Assembly (NCBI GenBank): GCA_015272515.1
Contig: JACYLN010000097.1
Location: 1-36,316, forward strand
Source of the DNA: Leptolyngbyaceae cyanobacterium C42_A2020_001
GTDB taxonomy: Bacteria; Cyanobacteriota; Cyanobacteriia; Leptolyngbyales; Leptolyngbyaceae
Direction of reading: 5' to 3'
Length of the DNA: 36,316 nucleotides
Part shown: piece after piece, positions 1 through 9,582 of the stretch
Layout: every line of letters begins with the position of its first letter
Position numbering within the stretch: the stretch's first letter is position 1
The notes under the pieces: generated by a model
What the model was told of the DNA's origin: nothing
What the model saw: the letters and a program-made list of their open reading frames with translations, nothing else
Database searches by the model: none
Made by a program: the position numbers and the translations under genes

Positions 1-793
1 TTCCCTACCGACTAACATTCTCAGGGAAGGGCTGAAGGGTGTGCTGTATGCGATTAGCACGGATGAAACTAAGCGCATTTTGACAGGTGTTTATATTCAG
101 ATTGGGCAAAATGCCCTGAAATTCATTGCAACAGATGGTCATCGAGTGGCAATTGCAGAAATATCAACCGAGGGTATTGGTAGAAAACAGCGTAAGCGAT
201 CGGGAGCCGATGAACATACCCAGTTTCCGATTTCCGGCAAAGCGCTGAAGGAACTGACTCGTAACCTGGCTGATTCGGTTGACTCGATTCAACTGCTGTA
301 CGACGCGGAGGCAACCCGCGCTAGTTTTGCATGGCAAGACGTTATTTTGAGCTGCCAGTGCCTTGAAGGGCAATATCCAGACTGTGAGCAACTGTTGGCA
401 CGCTACAGTTTTGACCAAGAAGTGGTGCTGGAGAAATCAGGACTACTCAAAGCGTTGGAACGGTTATCGGTGTTGACTGACAAGAAAGAGAGAGGGATTC
501 AGTTTCGCTTTGATGGAACGACCCAACAAATTCACCTTTCGATCGAGCGAGAGTTTGGCAAGGGTGATGAAACAATCAGTGCTCATATCCCTACAGATAT
601 GACATTAGATATCCAATTCAACCTTAAATATCTGGGAGAAGCGGTTAAAGCGATTCCTAGTTCTGGGATCAAGATGCATTTGAAGCAACCGGACTATCCA
701 GCCATGTTGGTTCCTGCTAGGGATTTTAACAATCCAGAATTAGAGATGGAAATGCGTCACTTTCTCTTTCCCGTTTATAAGCAGCCGGAGTAA
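1..793 (+). CDS. dnaN: DNA polymerase III beta subunit (sliding clamp), 5'-truncated
   Basis: Processivity clamp that holds DNA polymerase on its template. The frame is open from base 2, so the gene begins outside the window; the GTG at 41 is internal, because the residues before it (LREGLKG) already read as the start of clamp domain 2. About 263 residues are present against a usual 365-390, covering domains 2 and 3. The hallmark FIATDGHRVA follows a typical ETKRILTGV segment, and a CLEGQYPDCEQLL stretch matches the conserved EGxFPxY region. The C-terminus ends in HFLFPVYKQPE rather than the usual MPMRL-type tail, so this may be a diverged second clamp. It is alone on the plus strand and followed by a hairpin. 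Confidence 0.85.
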   Translation, partial: SLPTNILREGLKGVLYAISTDETKRILTGVYIQIGQNALKFIATDGHRVAIAEISTEGIGRKQRKRSGADEHTQFPISGKALKELTRNLADSVDSIQLLYDAEATRASFAWQDVILSCQCLEGQYPDCEQLLARYSFDQEVVLEKSGLLKALERLSVLTDKKERGIQFRFDGTTQQIHLSIEREFGKGDETISAHIPTDMTLDIQFNLKYLGEAVKAIPSSGIKMHLKQPDYPAMLVPARDFNNPELEMEMRHFLFPVYKQPE

Positions 794-1039: not shown

Positions 1040-2836
1040 TCAATTTTTCTCTAGAAACCCTCCAGCGTAGGTGATAACACACATCGAACGAAGATATCCG
1101 TGCTGACCACAAGCTACACCCGTAACTTGAAAATCTGGATTAAAAAAGTTATCTCGATCTCCTGCTTTACGAAGACCATCATCAATAATAAGTGCTTCCA
1201 TAACTGCAACCCTTGCTGGAGAAACTGATCCTTCAGCTTTAGAAGAATCAAAATAAGAAATACTTTCACCCTCATTACAACCAACAGATCCATGCTTACG
1301 CAGTCTGTCCCAATAACCGTTACCACTGTTACCAGTATGTCCAAAATTTTTACCACTTTTTCCTTGATCATTTACGTGATCTCGACTAGCGTTAGACATA
1401 CCTACAGAGACACTAAGGGGAGGTAACGGCTGTTTTGAACGAACGAAAGCTATGGCTTCATCTACAGCACGAACTCTTTTATTAGGATCGAGCGTTTCAC
1501 CTCGAAGCCTTAACCAGTTCCTATAAAAATATTGCTTTTGTGCATCAAGATAATCGGCGTAAGCACTAGGATTAGTACGCATAATATTTATTTCCTTAAT
1601 AACACCTTTCTCCAAGGTTGAGAGATTAGTAGGAGGGCGACCTGATACTCCTAAAGCTTGTCGATGTTGTTTCAATTGTTCAGCTATGCTGTCAGAAATC
1701 GATTTTGGAGTTTCAGGAGATGACCAGTATGCGGCATTTAAAAATTTCAGCATTTCGCAAGAGTTAGCCTCTTTCCCAACGTTTATGGGTTCTACTTTTC
1801 CGCCTGGGTAAGAAAATTTCTGCCCCTCCTTAACTTGTGCTCCTTTTGGGTTCTCTTTTGACTTCACTAAAATGTCGCCTTCAAAGGCTTCGACACTTAC
1901 ATTTTCGACTACGACCTGATCCCATTTACACGTTGCTATCCACGGATACTTTGATCCAGGTGGCTCATCTCTTAAAGTACATCTGTATTTACGAACGTAA
2001 CTGTCATCTATATTTTCACTGACGCTGAAATTTGAATTCCATACGCATTCGCGTACATTTCCAGATGGAGTGTTCTTAGTTGTACACCGCCATCTACATG
2101 TTTGTATAGGTTTAGAAGAGTTTTCGGTGGTGCATCCAAAATCATAATTATCAGGTTGGAAATCGCGATAATAACTAGAATCGGGATAATCGTTAGATAT
2201 ATTACTAGAAGTTCGGATCACTGTTTGTCCTTTTGCAGGATTGATTATCAAATTATCCTCTTGCTTGTCAGAGTTCTGCTTATTGCCAAGCCCAATGATA
2301 CTGGCTACTTTCTCAACAGGTTTTGGTAGCTGTGAGATAATTTTGTTTGGGGAACGCTGTATATTAATCCCGTCTTTACCCGCACCACAGGCTCTGCTTC
2401 CGCCACCCTTTCCACTCCAAGCAATTATGAAATGTCCTTCAACTTGGCAAGGAAAAGTATAGATACCTTTATTGTAGGTTTTAACTATAAGTCCATCATA
2501 TTTTTGATCTTGTGTTACAAAACCAAAAGATGCCCAGTAATTTTCAGATGGAACAGCTAGAGAACCCCCAGTCCTCATCTCTACACCTTTTTTCACAGCA
2601 CTTGTGTCCCTGGCTCTTGCTACTTGGCGTATCCAAAAATCACTTCCACTACCGTTAAAATTAATAACGTGGGCTGCTGAGGGTATATCAGCCAGACTTT
2701 GAACATTCGCTAGGACTAGCAGTACTGCTACAAGGAATGTAGCAGTACTCAATTTCCAAAAATAAGAGAAACAAAATTGTTCAGCGCAATGCTTGCAAGA
2801 CAGTATAACAACCTTCAAAAGGTTAGTGGGTCTCAT
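1040..2836 (-). CDS. secreted or membrane-anchored CAP (SCP/PR-1) domain protein
   Basis: 598 residues. A hydrophobic segment at about 31-47 ending in QSLA-D looks like a signal peptide or N-terminal anchor. The C-terminal third is a CAP domain: EINIMRTNPSAYADYL, then SRDHVNDQG, NFGHTG, NEGESISYF and CVITYAGG give the usual His/Glu cavity residues. The middle carries a Cys-rich stretch (residues about 235-310) and a FecR-like segment (VEAFEGDILVKSKENPKG). The N-terminal module is unrecognised. Its start overlaps the end of the upstream STAND gene by 14 bases, suggesting translational coupling and a shared job. Bacterial CAP proteins are extracellular; their activities are mostly unknown. The first 30 residues are unusually long for a signal peptide, so the start is uncertain. 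Confidence 0.75.
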   Translation of the reverse strand: MRPTNLLKVVILSCKHCAEQFCFSYFWKLSTATFLVAVLLVLANVQSLADIPSAAHVINFNGSGSDFWIRQVARARDTSAVKKGVEMRTGGSLAVPSENYWASFGFVTQDQKYDGLIVKTYNKGIYTFPCQVEGHFIIAWSGKGGGSRACGAGKDGINIQRSPNKIISQLPKPVEKVASIIGLGNKQNSDKQEDNLIINPAKGQTVIRTSSNISNDYPDSSYYRDFQPDNYDFGCTTENSSKPIQTCRWRCTTKNTPSGNVRECVWNSNFSVSENIDDSYVRKYRCTLRDEPPGSKYPWIATCKWDQVVVENVSVEAFEGDILVKSKENPKGAQVKEGQKFSYPGGKVEPINVGKEANSCEMLKFLNAAYWSSPETPKSISDSIAEQLKQHRQALGVSGRPPTNLSTLEKGVIKEINIMRTNPSAYADYLDAQKQYFYRNWLRLRGETLDPNKRVRAVDEAIAFVRSKQPLPPLSVSVGMSNASRDHVNDQGKSGKNFGHTGNSGNGYWDRLRKHGSVGCNEGESISYFDSSKAEGSVSPARVAVMEALIIDDGLRKAGDRDNFFNPDFQVTGVACGQHGYLRSMCVITYAGGFLEKN

Positions 2837-4046: not shown

Positions 4047-4970
4047 CTACTTCTGTTGTGTCTCACTGAGTTGACTGTAGATTTCTTCTGCATGATTCGC
4101 TAGGGCTTGTTTGACACCACCAATTTCGTCATAAGTACTATGAGTTAGCTTTCTATTCTGTTTCTTTTTCCATAAGCGAGTTAAGGCAAACTCCAGTAAA
4201 GGTAAGTTCCCAGGTTCTCTACCTACATCGTCTAAAATTCTCTGAATTAGTTTTGCCTCTAGTGACACACTCAACCTTTCAAGAGGCTTTTCTATAACAA
4301 ATTGTAGTTCTTCTCGATTCATTGAACTAAGAAGTTGTGGTGTAAACTGCTGTAATGCATCCCGTAGCCGACGATTAGAAAGAACGTAACCGTAAAAATC
4401 TGCTCGTAAGGTCAGTACAAGCGTCAAGTTATCTTGGTTAATAGCATCTAGTAATATGCCAATGAACTGATATTGCTCCTCATCTGAACAAAGAGTATAG
4501 ATTTCCTCAAATTGGTCAACTACTAGCAGCATCCGTTTTCCGAAGTTGCGTTCTAGAATATTTGATGTAACCTGTAGCAGAGTTAACTTTCCTTGCATCA
4601 AGTCTGTCCCTAGTTCCGCCGATCGCTTGATCTGTTGAATTTCGTCTAACCCAGGCTTAAGCAGTCGAACTAGAGCAGAGGCAAGTCCATAAAACGGTTG
4701 ATTTTGAGGGCGGAAGCTATCAATTAGCCAATTTCCCTCTGCTCGTAGCTGAGGAATCAATCCAGCAAAGACGACGGAAGATTTGCCACTACCAGATGGA
4801 CCAATTACAGCTACCAATGGTTGTGTTTGAACTGCTTTAACCAGCCCAGTTTTGGATTGTTCATCACCAAAAAGGAATCGATCTCGCCCAAAGAAGAGGT
4901 CTGCATCCTGTTCAAGGAAAGGTAACAACCCCCGATACGGACAATCTACATCGGGGTCAACTACTTTTTT
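4047..4970 (-). CDS. nSTAND-family NTPase, nucleotide-binding part, lacking its own start
   Basis: STAND ATPases are signal-integrating NTPases often found in bacterial conflict systems. The frame reads DCPYRGLLPFLEQDADLFFG at its beginning, the family's conserved entry motif, then Walker A GPSGSGKSS and Walker B RMLLVVDQFEE about 95 residues later. No ATG, GTG or TTG exists between the upstream in-frame stop (4971-4973) and the conserved CPYRG; the only candidate, TTG at 4928, lies after it. The frame is joined to the upstream coiled-coil gene by an A7 tract in the -1 frame, so the natural product is probably a fusion. It ends at an amber codon after SETQQK, where relatives continue. Confidence 0.65.
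   Translation of the reverse strand, partial: KKVVDPDVDCPYRGLLPFLEQDADLFFGRDRFLFGDEQSKTGLVKAVQTQPLVAVIGPSGSGKSSVVFAGLIPQLRAEGNWLIDSFRPQNQPFYGLASALVRLLKPGLDEIQQIKRSAELGTDLMQGKLTLLQVTSNILERNFGKRMLLVVDQFEEIYTLCSDEEQYQFIGILLDAINQDNLTLVLTLRADFYGYVLSNRRLRDALQQFTPQLLSSMNREELQFVIEKPLERLSVSLEAKLIQRILDDVGREPGNLPLLEFALTRLWKKKQNRKLTHSTYDEIGGVKQALANHAEEIYSQLSETQQK
4930..4970 (-). promoter_or_regulatory. candidate -1 ribosomal frameshift site
   Basis: On the minus strand the coiled-coil gene ends GAA AAA AAG TAG. A AAA AAG (4970-4964) is the classic bacterial slippery heptamer in the correct phase. A 7-base spacer (4963-4957) follows, then a hairpin: CCCCGAT at 4956-4950 pairs perfectly with ATCGGGG at 4936-4930 around a 13-base loop. 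A -1 slip would bypass the TAG and enter the nSTAND frame exactly before its conserved entry motif. No strong upstream Shine-Dalgarno-like stimulator is seen. A plain frameshift mutation or a homopolymer sequencing error would look similar except for the hairpin. Confidence 0.5.
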
Positions 4971-7216: not shown

Positions 7217-7822
7217 ATGCAGCGTTCGTCCCCGCATCTAAAACTTCTTGCATATCTGGAAGATTACATTCAACTTCACGGCTACTCTCCGGTGATTGAT
7301 GAAATGATGGCGGCAATGGGGAAGCCGCGCGGTGCAATCCAAAACAGTCTCAAATATTTGGAACGAGAGGGCTATATTGAACGGCGCTATGGAAAAGCCC
7401 GTGCTATCCGAATTCTTAAATCAAACCGAGGTGGTATTCCAATTTGGGGGACGATCGCCGCAGGCTATCTCAGCGAAGTATTCACCGATAGCCAGGATGT
7501 GCTGTCAATTTCCAGTCCGAAGCTAAAACCTGGGGATTTTGCACTCCAAGTGGCTGGAGACAGTATGATTGGCGATCACATTCCGGATGGTTCATTTGTG
7601 ATTATGCGTCCTGTCTCTGATCTTGCTGCATTAAAGGATGGAGGGATTGTGGCAGCGTGGGTAGAAGGTAGAGGTACAACGTTGAAGCACTTTTATCGTG
7701 AAGGCAAGCACATTTCATTGATCGCATCTAATCCTAACTATCCACCCATCACAGTTGATGCAGAAGAATGTCGAGTAGAGGTGCAAGGTGCTTTGTTATG
7801 GGTTTTGCGGGAGTATGGATAA
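7217..7822 (+). CDS. lexA: LexA repressor
   Basis: 201 residues, full length. An N-terminal winged helix (residues about 5-65; PVIDEMMAAMGKPRGAIQNS is the recognition region) is followed by an S24 peptidase domain. The self-cleavage pair Ala82-Gly83 (TIAAGYL), the nucleophile Ser116 (AGDSM) and the general base Lys157 (GTTLKHFY) are all present. It should therefore be capable of RecA-stimulated autocleavage, unlike some cyanobacterial LexA proteins that have lost these residues. The DNA-binding half is diverged from enterobacterial LexA. Start ATG is chosen because the LexA box sits just upstream. In cyanobacteria LexA can control carbon or redox genes as well as DNA repair. Confidence 0.88.
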   Translation: MQRSSPHLKLLAYLEDYIQLHGYSPVIDEMMAAMGKPRGAIQNSLKYLEREGYIERRYGKARAIRILKSNRGGIPIWGTIAAGYLSEVFTDSQDVLSISSPKLKPGDFALQVAGDSMIGDHIPDGSFVIMRPVSDLAALKDGGIVAAWVEGRGTTLKHFYREGKHISLIASNPNYPPITVDAEECRVEVQGALLWVLREYG

Positions 7823-7850: not shown

Positions 7851-9101
7851 CTAATGGGCTGGAAACGCTAAGCTAGCTTTTGTTAACGCTGGAACAATGC
7901 GATCGCTCACTGCCCTTGCACCGGATAAATTGCGCGCCGTTGGACCCGTGCGTAATGCGGCTAACCCACCCATGATAAATAGCTCACAGTCTCGCCAGCA
8001 TAAGCCTTCATCCACGATCGGCAACCCATTCACAATATCGGTTGGATAAGCGTCTAAAACATCCTGCAACAACGGGTGCTTTGCCGCATCTAACTGGCTA
8101 CCTGTAGCACACCAGATGCGATTGATCGTTTGATGCTGAATATACTCATGCACCACTGAATTATCGCAAACCACCTGCCAGTGTTCTCCACTCCAGCGGG
8201 CTTGAGAGACCTGACACTGCTCATAAAATACAATCCGCCCCTCTCGCTGCAAACGACCCAACTGGGTCAGCATCGCCGGGGTCATTGAGCCACCGTTTCT
8301 AGCTTGTTGAATCATTTGCCAGCGAGTATACCAATTCGGTTCCGCCCAAAAGTCTTTGAGATATTTCGGACCCAGCCAACCGGGATCGGCATCGAACAAT
8401 TTCTCGTACAGGGTGCGTCGTGACATCAGTAAAACCTGTGCACCTCGTTGAATTGCCCCAACAGCCAGGTGTCCACTGGTTAATCCACCGCCGATGATCA
8501 GAATTCGTTCACCTCGGAGTTGCAATCCTCGTAGATCGATTTGATAGGAATGCAGGAGGCGATCGGGTGGATAACCCATGGGAATTTGACTGACCCACTG
8601 TGGCGTATGAGGGATGCCACCCCCATTGGCAATCACTACTCTGCGGGCGGTCACGGTTTGACCGGTGGATAATCCCAGACAAAACCGGGACTGACGCTGA
8701 TGGTTCAAGGGTTTGATCTGCACAACTTGAGCCGAATACACGCAATTCTCCAACTGCCAGCGCCGGATCACGTCCTGACAAAATTCTTGAAACAGTCGAG
8801 TTCCTGGTAAATCGTAAGGCGGATGCAACTCATCTGCCCGCGATTCAGCAAAGCGGCGCAGGGCAAACGAGTCGGGATCGGGGTGATGCACCGCAGGAGA
8901 TCTGAGATGGGGAATTTCCAACGCTGCAAACTGGTGATTCCAACGACTCATCCAGGTGCCGCTGGGGTCGAGGACGAGAAACCGTCCTCGTAGCGATTTC
9001 TTTTTCTGCAATAAGTGTGTCACCAGGGTTAGCGCATGGGGTCCAGCCCCAACGATCGCTAGGTCAATGGAATCTGGTAGGGGAGACGAGGCATCAGGCA
9101 T
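7851..9101 (-). CDS. FAD/NAD(P)-binding oxidoreductase resembling lysine/ornithine N-hydroxylases
   Basis: 416 residues. An N-terminal FAD dinucleotide fold (LAIVGAGPHALTLVTHLL, residues about 13-30) and a second, NAD(P) fold (ILIIGGGLTSGHLAVGAI, about 200-217) are followed by the ATG-type motif CATGSQLD near the C-terminus. This arrangement fits the flavin monooxygenase group that N-hydroxylates lysine or ornithine in siderophore synthesis, though a simple flavin oxidoreductase is also possible. It is divergent from the 9190-12656 operon across a Zur box only 22 bases before its start, so it is probably induced when zinc is scarce. No siderophore assembly genes are in the window. The 3' end faces lexA convergently. 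Confidence 0.65.
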   Translation of the reverse strand: MPDASSPLPDSIDLAIVGAGPHALTLVTHLLQKKKSLRGRFLVLDPSGTWMSRWNHQFAALEIPHLRSPAVHHPDPDSFALRRFAESRADELHPPYDLPGTRLFQEFCQDVIRRWQLENCVYSAQVVQIKPLNHQRQSRFCLGLSTGQTVTARRVVIANGGGIPHTPQWVSQIPMGYPPDRLLHSYQIDLRGLQLRGERILIIGGGLTSGHLAVGAIQRGAQVLLMSRRTLYEKLFDADPGWLGPKYLKDFWAEPNWYTRWQMIQQARNGGSMTPAMLTQLGRLQREGRIVFYEQCQVSQARWSGEHWQVVCDNSVVHEYIQHQTINRIWCATGSQLDAAKHPLLQDVLDAYPTDIVNGLPIVDEGLCWRDCELFIMGGLAALRTGPTARNLSGARAVSDRIVPALTKASLAFPAH

Positions 9102-9119
9102 GAATCAATGGCTAAATTG

Positions 9120-9138
9120 TGAGAATGATTATCATTTT
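9120..9138. promoter_or_regulatory. Zur-type box, bidirectional
   Basis: TGAGAATGATTATCATTTT contains a perfect 6-1-6 palindrome (AATGAT, T, ATCATT at 9124-9136). The same 19 bases recur exactly at 30058-30076. It lies between the flavoprotein gene and the 9190 operon, close to both starts. Zur with zinc should repress both directions. Confidence 0.75.
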
Positions 9139-9189
9139 AGTTGTATCATAGGGCGATGTTTTGCAGTGAATGAAGCATCAGGAGAAAAA

Positions 9190-9582
9190 ATGTCTCTAAA
9201 CGTCAGTGAAACCCTGGTTCAACAAGCAGCAGCAGGGGAAGTGGATGAGCCAGCTTTTGTCGAAACCATCCGGCAATCCCTGCCCTATGCCTGGGGCATC
9301 GTTGAGAAGCTAGCGCACAGCATTCATCAGGAGGGTGAAGAATGGGCAAATCATGCGGTGGCTCCCCCTAGTGAACAGGCACGAGCGCAATTGCTCCGCA
9401 TGGTGGGTGGAGACGCAATTCGAGGTGCGGTAGAGCGTCACTTTGATGTGAAGCTAGCGTTTCAGAACTGTCATAAGCTGGCAGTCTTTCGGCGCGATTG
9501 TTTAGATTCTGATGCGTACCGCAACTTCACGTCCATCCGCAATCAGATTCTCAACCAAACCCCTGAGCTTCAAGACTGTTAG
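9190..9582 (+). CDS. conserved hypothetical protein, first gene of a Zur-box operon
   Basis: 130 residues from ATG at 9190, chosen because of the GGAGAAAA ribosome site directly before it; longer reading frames would run through the Zur box. Soluble and helical. Features are SLPYAWGIVEKLAH, a PPSEQARAQLLRMVGGDAIRGAVERHF block and AFQNCHKLAVFRRD, where Cys-His could bind metal. I know no function for it. It sits 8 bases before the CobW-like NTPase gene, so a role together with that protein in zinc allocation is the reasonable guess. Confidence 0.65.
   Translation: MSLNVSETLVQQAAAGEVDEPAFVETIRQSLPYAWGIVEKLAHSIHQEGEEWANHAVAPPSEQARAQLLRMVGGDAIRGAVERHFDVKLAFQNCHKLAVFRRDCLDSDAYRNFTSIRNQILNQTPELQDC

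Follow-up and report, generated by a model that had tools for sequence, protein, structure and literature searches.

On the minus strand of a 36,316-nucleotide stretch of DNA from Leptolyngbyaceae cyanobacterium C42_A2020_001 (contig JACYLN010000097.1; the whole stretch is called the window here), a short open reading frame stops where a second one, shifted by -1 and encoding an NTPase, begins. Is this one gene broken by mutation or sequencing error, or are the two frames joined in expression? A preliminary description of the locus had favoured a -1 ribosomal frameshift that would fuse a coiled-coil module to an nSTAND NTPase.

Head, slippery site and stem in the window

The first frame, called the head below, ends with GTT GAA AAA AAG TAG. 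The heptamer, its phase, the stop codon, the 7-nt spacer and the stem that the preliminary description had reported on the minus strand (4970-4930) were all found at these positions (Table 1), the 3' arm of the stem-loop being formed by the YRG codons of the CPYRGL motif. The product of the -1 frame, called the tail, matches nSTAND1 (PF20703) with 269.8 bits, well above the curated cut-off of 27.1, which confirms it as an nSTAND NTPase. It is also true that no start codon precedes CPYRGL in the window, the first ATG, GTG or TTG being a TTG at codon 12, after CPYRG.

Table 1 Features of the head-tail locus in the window
Feature	Position	Strand	Remarks
Head (ORF1)	5458-4961	minus	165 aa, all-helical, adaptor-like; N-terminal helical hairpin and conserved C-terminal module
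Slippery heptamer A AAA AAG	4970-4964	minus	zero phase; kept in Tildeniella nuda
Zero-frame stop TAG	4963-4961	minus	immediately 3' of the heptamer
Spacer	4963-4957	minus	7 nt, counted from the heptamer
Stem-loop	4956-4930	minus	arms CCCCGATG/TATCGGGG, 4956-4949 with 4937-4930, 7 bp and one G-U
-1 frame, first part of the nSTAND1 NTPase	4964-4050	minus	305 codons, begins VVDPDVDCPYRGL
In-frame TAG inside the NTPase	4049-4047	minus	in the window only, compared with T. nuda, which is open there; the family match reads through one TAG
Remaining tail, same frame	4046-2823	minus	last nSTAND1 part and a less conserved C-terminal region

For the stem, the window locus gives weaker evidence when considered by itself. 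Its 7-nt spacer falls within the 5-8 nt at which a stimulatory structure is expected downstream of a programmed -1 site. Against dinucleotide shuffles the isolated 27-nt hairpin stands out (z -2.61; 1 shuffle in 200 equally good), but longer folding windows at the locus are unexceptional (z -0.37; z -1.36 with 24 of 200 as good). The stem scores 19 against 17 for an in-frame nSTAND1 gene of the same genome, a small margin. The pattern AAAAAAGTAR occurs at 40 sites in this genome and the reversed control pattern at 43, so there is no excess; among the 29 sites evaluated (30 of the 40 were taken for this context test), only that in the window joins at least 60 open zero-frame codons to at least 100 open -1 codons. 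Transposase or phage genes, looked for by Pfam in the head and in the scanned tails, gave no match at the frameshift. The A run consists of seven A, below the threshold of about nine or more identical bases for transcriptional slippage. UUU is the sole tRNA-Lys anticodon in the tRNA list of the genome, a list that lacks Ile, Asp, Gln, His and Trp.

The preliminary description overlooked a second break of the NTPase frame, the in-frame TAG at 4047-4049, because of which the window copy is unable to make the full fusion as the sequence stands. The ORF called behind it (4025-2823) matches PF20703 with 65.2 bits. Two other full-length nSTAND1 matches in the same genome are in frame, with heads that look caspase-like by eye and without the signal.

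Directly behind the tail lies a gene for a 598-aa protein with a CAP (cysteine-rich secretory protein) domain (1040-2836, minus strand), and the block from this gene to approximately 7142 is collinear with T. nuda. A LexA-like protein with LexA DNA-binding and S24 peptidase matches (7217-7822, plus strand) is encoded just outside the shared block. Further along, an ORF at 8956-9582 (plus strand) matches PF20704, 'NucS shadow ORF', with 196.9 bits and overlaps the start of a minus-strand gene (9101-7851); the contig edge carries a DNA polymerase III beta-clamp fragment (2-793, plus strand).

Structure of the head

An AF2 model built from two sequences contains helices only (mean pLDDT 75, with low confidence near the C-terminus). 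It gave no match in the PDB at E ≤ 0.001, and the head sequence gave none in Pfam. The consensus of the C-terminal module reads LxEIRxKLNEPGxxAAAKLKxALPLxPPFxSYExELDTE...FPTF...KK. Membership of EAD9 (PF19962) was considered and rejected: the window head does not match the profile, one of 13 heads matches at E 0.038, and the hairpin downstream of the L039 head reaches 15.8 bits against a cut-off of 25. Since the profile cut-off was failed, we do not file the head under EAD9 and speak of an 'EAD9-like' resemblance only. One head, on a plasmid of Calothrix sp. PCC 7716 (L121, 2734-3327), carries EAD1 (E 1e-22) in place of the N-terminal hairpin, together with the same C-terminal module and the heptamer G GGA AAG.

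Comparison with Tildeniella nuda

Tildeniella nuda, the sole relative confirmed by a contig scan (head identity 96%), was also the best foreign match in the genome search. It retains the heptamer, the stop, the spacer and the stem; its tail gene is open at the site of the window TAG and is 729 codons long, and its -1 frame has a GTG at codon 5, before the CPYRG motif. Window and T. nuda agree at 94.7% of nucleotides in the head and at 89.2% over the 305 codons of the -1 frame, with dN/dS values of 0.075 and 0.117, respectively. Judged by these ratios, both frames are under purifying selection in this pair. The zero frame past the stop is riddled with stop codons in both (26 and 29 per 290 codons). 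Extra nucleotide conservation at the junction relative to its surroundings was tested in this pair and was not significant.

Beyond the window TAG, dN/dS is 0.149 in the first 110 codons and 0.268 in the rest. As purifying selection is thus still visible there, the TAG probably arose recently, or is an error of assembly.

Survey of the head family

A profile of 13 heads found matches in 44 of 388 genomes of the class, and a profile of the C-terminal module in 50 of 388. Searches at the level of orders (9 of 42, 3 of 36 and 4 of 38 genomes) returned only genomes that had already been found; the head is absent from both other genomes of the genus. A tblastn search with the window head hit 3 of 72,556 plasmid records, and the layout is repeated on these three complete plasmids. 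Counting the window, the survey comprises 58 head loci whose 3' end is complete; 45 belong to a short type (about 165 aa) and the other 13 to a long one. Dropped before counting were sequences running off the sequence end (L042 and the second hits in L016, L026 and L039), truncated heads (L053, L055), hairpin-only WD40 proteins (second hits in L033 and L037) and hits below threshold; the four heads with internal stops (L040, L041, L045, L054) were retained in the counts. The loci are related by descent, and the counts are consequently not independent.

An in-phase heptamer of the X XXY YYZ kind lies within the last 45 nt of the head in 41 of the 58 loci: A AAA AAG in 32, G GGA AAG in five and A AAA AAA in four. 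Within this 45-nt stretch A AAA AAG occurs 33 times in phase 0 and 3 times in the other phases. Of 44 heads examined for the codon preceding AAA AAG, 30 have A AAA AAG; across these 30 that codon has A as its third base without exception and specifies ten amino acids. The heads were picked by the motif, which makes any probabilities post hoc. In 26 of the 41 loci the heptamer is followed at once by a stop, and in 10 more a single codon intervenes. Of the 41 heptamer loci, 38 have a -1 frame without a stop over 150 codons or more, or as far as the available sequence reaches; the short ones are L026 (13 codons), L043 (32) and L045 (99). A Shine-Dalgarno-like upstream stimulator was seen in only 13 of the 41. 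With a stimulator present, the top three heptamers for efficiency in E. coli include both A AAA AAG and G GGA AAG (PMC4066793).

The preliminary description had held that close homologues fused in frame without the hairpin would point to a simple mutation. No such homologue turned up: heptamer and hairpin are kept in T. nuda, and not one of the 58 heads continues in frame into a tail.

Stems behind the heptamers

Folding was computed in a window of 52 nt starting 4 nt past the heptamer. Downstream of 38 junctions the mean z was -1.84, with 45% of values below -2, as compared with a mean of -0.13 and 4.8% in 334 control windows from the same loci (p 4e-10). Uninterrupted stems were found behind 22 of 37 non-A7 heptamers and at 12 of 492 control positions, and they start 4-7 nt past the heptamer in 19 of the 22 stem-bearing loci. 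None of the four A AAA AAA heptamers is followed by an uninterrupted stem, and neither are 15 of the 37 non-A7 junctions, the Nostoc and Crinalium plasmid copies (two of the three plasmids) among them. In tails of the CPYRGL type the YRG codons form the 3' arm and the upstream linker the 5' arm; the stem scores of this type are 27 in T. nuda, 29 in L121, 21 in L044 and 19 in the window. The two in-frame nSTAND1 genes of the window genome reach 11 and 17.

Tails and their exchange

A Pfam scan covered 30 of 36 tails, plus the window tail, and left out L009, L037, L040, L045 and L059. Matches above cut-off were obtained for 28 of the 30 (one had a match below cut-off only, one had none) and fall into eight Pfam classes, unrelated or distantly related: NB-ARC (17), nSTAND_NTPase4 (3), NACHT (2), nSTAND1 (2) and, once each, AAA_35, CHASE2, VMAP-C and caspase. 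The three plasmid tails carry the annotations FGE-like enzyme, WD40 protein (this one beginning with CPYRGL) and NACHT protein, all three genes being annotated as starting inside the -1 frame, N-terminally shortened, behind a 'hypothetical' head. A tree of 45 heads requires 19 changes between the 14 tail labels, 13 being the minimum and 25.1 the mean after shuffling, where the labels of L009, L025, L037, L040, L045, L120, L121 and L122 were given by eye, homology or annotation. As reconstructed on this tree, the tails are partly clustered, yet they have been swapped repeatedly while the junction persisted. PADLOC, run on nine proteins, returned nothing for the head or the T. nuda tail; it matched the L057 tail to PDC-S60, L062 to a caspase model, L007 to mad8, and four others to TPR or HEAT models.

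Loci without the heptamer

The heptamer is absent from 17 of the 58 heads, and in 13 of these a head-like hairpin opens a frame within 700 nt downstream (hairpins were counted at ≥10 bits and start codons judged by eye; read-through of the stop is also conceivable). Twelve of the 13 frames are in the zero frame past the stop, that of L028 is in another frame, and that of L058 lies past an intervening open frame. Among the 38 heptamer loci whose -1 frame extends over 90 codons or more, no downstream hairpin was found, the best score being 1.7 bits. L026, with its heptamer and 13-codon -1 frame, adjoins a hairpin gene (50 bits). The heptamer-less exceptions without a downstream hairpin are L025, which has a +1-frame tail after nine A, L029, in which no tail was seen, L060 and L067. 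In L029 (G189), the head sits at the C-terminal end of a 662-codon frame that ends GCG AAA AAG TGA, heptamer and tail both being absent.

Among these related loci the pattern reads as a rule: an effector is supplied with its hairpin by the head through frameshifting, or else carries a copy itself, as would be expected from the coupling idea proposed for EADs (PMC7159879). The heptamer-less relatives further suggest that the point of the signal is to hand the effector the hairpin of the head, rather than to hold a dangerous NTPase at a low level; the latter, proposed in the preliminary description, is one among several conceivable dosage ideas.

Proposed mechanism and its alternatives

From these results, it is very probable that a signal for programmed -1 ribosomal frameshifting lies at the end of the head and would yield a free adaptor and an adaptor-effector fusion. 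The majority of ribosomes would terminate at the TAG and release the free helical adaptor, and some, paused by the stem, would let two tRNAs slip one base back on A AAA AAG (on G GGA AAG in some relatives) and read on into the tail, giving an adaptor-NTPase fusion. In the window strain this fusion would end early, at the TAG at 4047-4049. We infer that slippage occurs, and at a certain rate, and that the free adaptor and the fusion assemble through the hairpin they share; one gene would thereby set the adaptor-to-effector ratio of an NLR-like conflict system, and surplus free adaptor could act as a partner, a scaffold or a brake. Frameshifting by the ribosome is the best supported reading because of the phase of the heptamer, the swap between two efficient heptamers and the spaced stems. 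Conservation in T. nuda and the signal in 41 of 58 loci give good support to the frameshift reading of the preliminary description, except that the full NTPase fusion it predicted is blocked in the window copy.

That the locus is a decaying gene, its frame broken by ordinary mutation or by a sequencing error in the A run, might be argued from the second lesion in the window copy and from the draft state of its assembly (149 contigs). We nevertheless regard decay as highly improbable: the identical break and signal are present in T. nuda, the heptamer recurs in 41 of 58 loci, complete plasmids carry the layout, purifying selection is seen on both sides of the break, and a head-tail form in frame was not found. 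For the family as a whole, simple mutation or sequencing error was ruled out by T. nuda, the dN/dS values and the 41 loci, and the in-frame fusion was rejected as the normal form when none appeared among the 58 heads. As a like signal recurs before many unrelated partners, it appears to be a reusable switch rather than a broken gene.

Two other routes to a tail product deserve more weight, each of them still unlikely. RNA polymerase could gain or lose an A in the run, which would bring some transcripts into frame, and six loci with nine-A runs (L025, L031, L036, L049, L057, L120) fit such slippage: no uninterrupted stem was found in the five tested (all but L025), the L025 tail is in the +1 frame, which template slippage could serve equally well, and four of the six have nSTAND_NTPase4-like tails (L025 by eye). 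The run is only six or seven A in most loci, however, the five G GGA AAG loci have no long homopolymer, and stems at ribosomal spacing are over-represented; as a general explanation transcriptional slippage is therefore improbable. The nine-A loci themselves may use it, in which case the family has two routes to one end. Slightly less probable again is termination followed by re-initiation, with the tail a separate protein restarted at a nearby ATG, GTG or TTG. Such a codon lies upstream of the P-loop in 24 of 25 P-loop tails (an ATG in 12), T. nuda offers the GTG at codon 5, and in four short-head relatives the downstream gene is indeed a separate one; against this, 29 of 34 tails lack an ATG in the first 20 codons, 13 of 25 lack one before the P-loop, and the first start in the window falls after CPYRG. 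Restarting would also leave unexplained both the in-phase heptamers and their absence beside hairpin-bearing downstream genes.

Beyond the -1 frameshift itself, we lean slightly towards a wider reading, namely a portable recoding cassette, in which one adaptor family with a -1 signal would have been joined repeatedly to unrelated NLR-like, caspase-like and signalling tails. The cassette would replace a second gene with its own adaptor copy, and the ratio of the two products would set the threshold at which a complex for cell death or defence is activated.

Relation to known systems and significance

The known cases of programmed frameshifting in bacteria belong for the most part to mobile elements and to a small set of individual genes. 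In dnaX, A AAA AAG is followed by a downstream hairpin, and lambda G/GT uses G GGA AAG; in both, a single start gives rise to a short product and a longer one. The heptamers of the cyanobacterial heads are alike, whereas here the signal is found at the end of an adaptor-like head, which it would link to tails of many unrelated kinds. A conserved programmed frameshift in chlD was reportedly also found by comparison. A -1 frameshift in cyanobacteria has been described for CsoS2 (PMC5009743), which, as presented there, is likewise a cellular, non-mobile bacterial case but concerns a single carboxysome gene without exchangeable tails. The first 300,000 characters of this review mention neither NB-ARC nor NACHT. 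The GeneTack survey found conserved prokaryotic frame transitions by comparison (PMC3711429); in its main text the terms NB-ARC, NACHT, ATPase, coiled and caspase are absent.

A further parallel is offered by EAD conflict systems, where small helical adaptors are common to core proteins and to NLR-like, caspase and FGE effectors (PMC7159879, PMC8195603). Shared helical adaptors are found in both cases, and one Calothrix head of the present family carries EAD1; the adaptor copies described in those papers, in contrast, are separate in-frame domains, and the word 'frameshift' is absent from both main texts. Among the papers listed in a search of the openly accessible literature, none describes, by its title or the start of its abstract, frameshift-made fusions of NACHT, NB-ARC, STAND, EAD, NLR or phage-defence proteins.

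In the three plasmid records, genes of the head-tail kind are annotated as a 'hypothetical' head and an N-terminally shortened tail. A frameshift serving as a reusable joint across NLR-like and other effector proteins would add a new rule to how prokaryotic immune or apoptosis-like systems are expressed, and the adaptor-to-effector ratio would become directly testable through a change of one heptamer.
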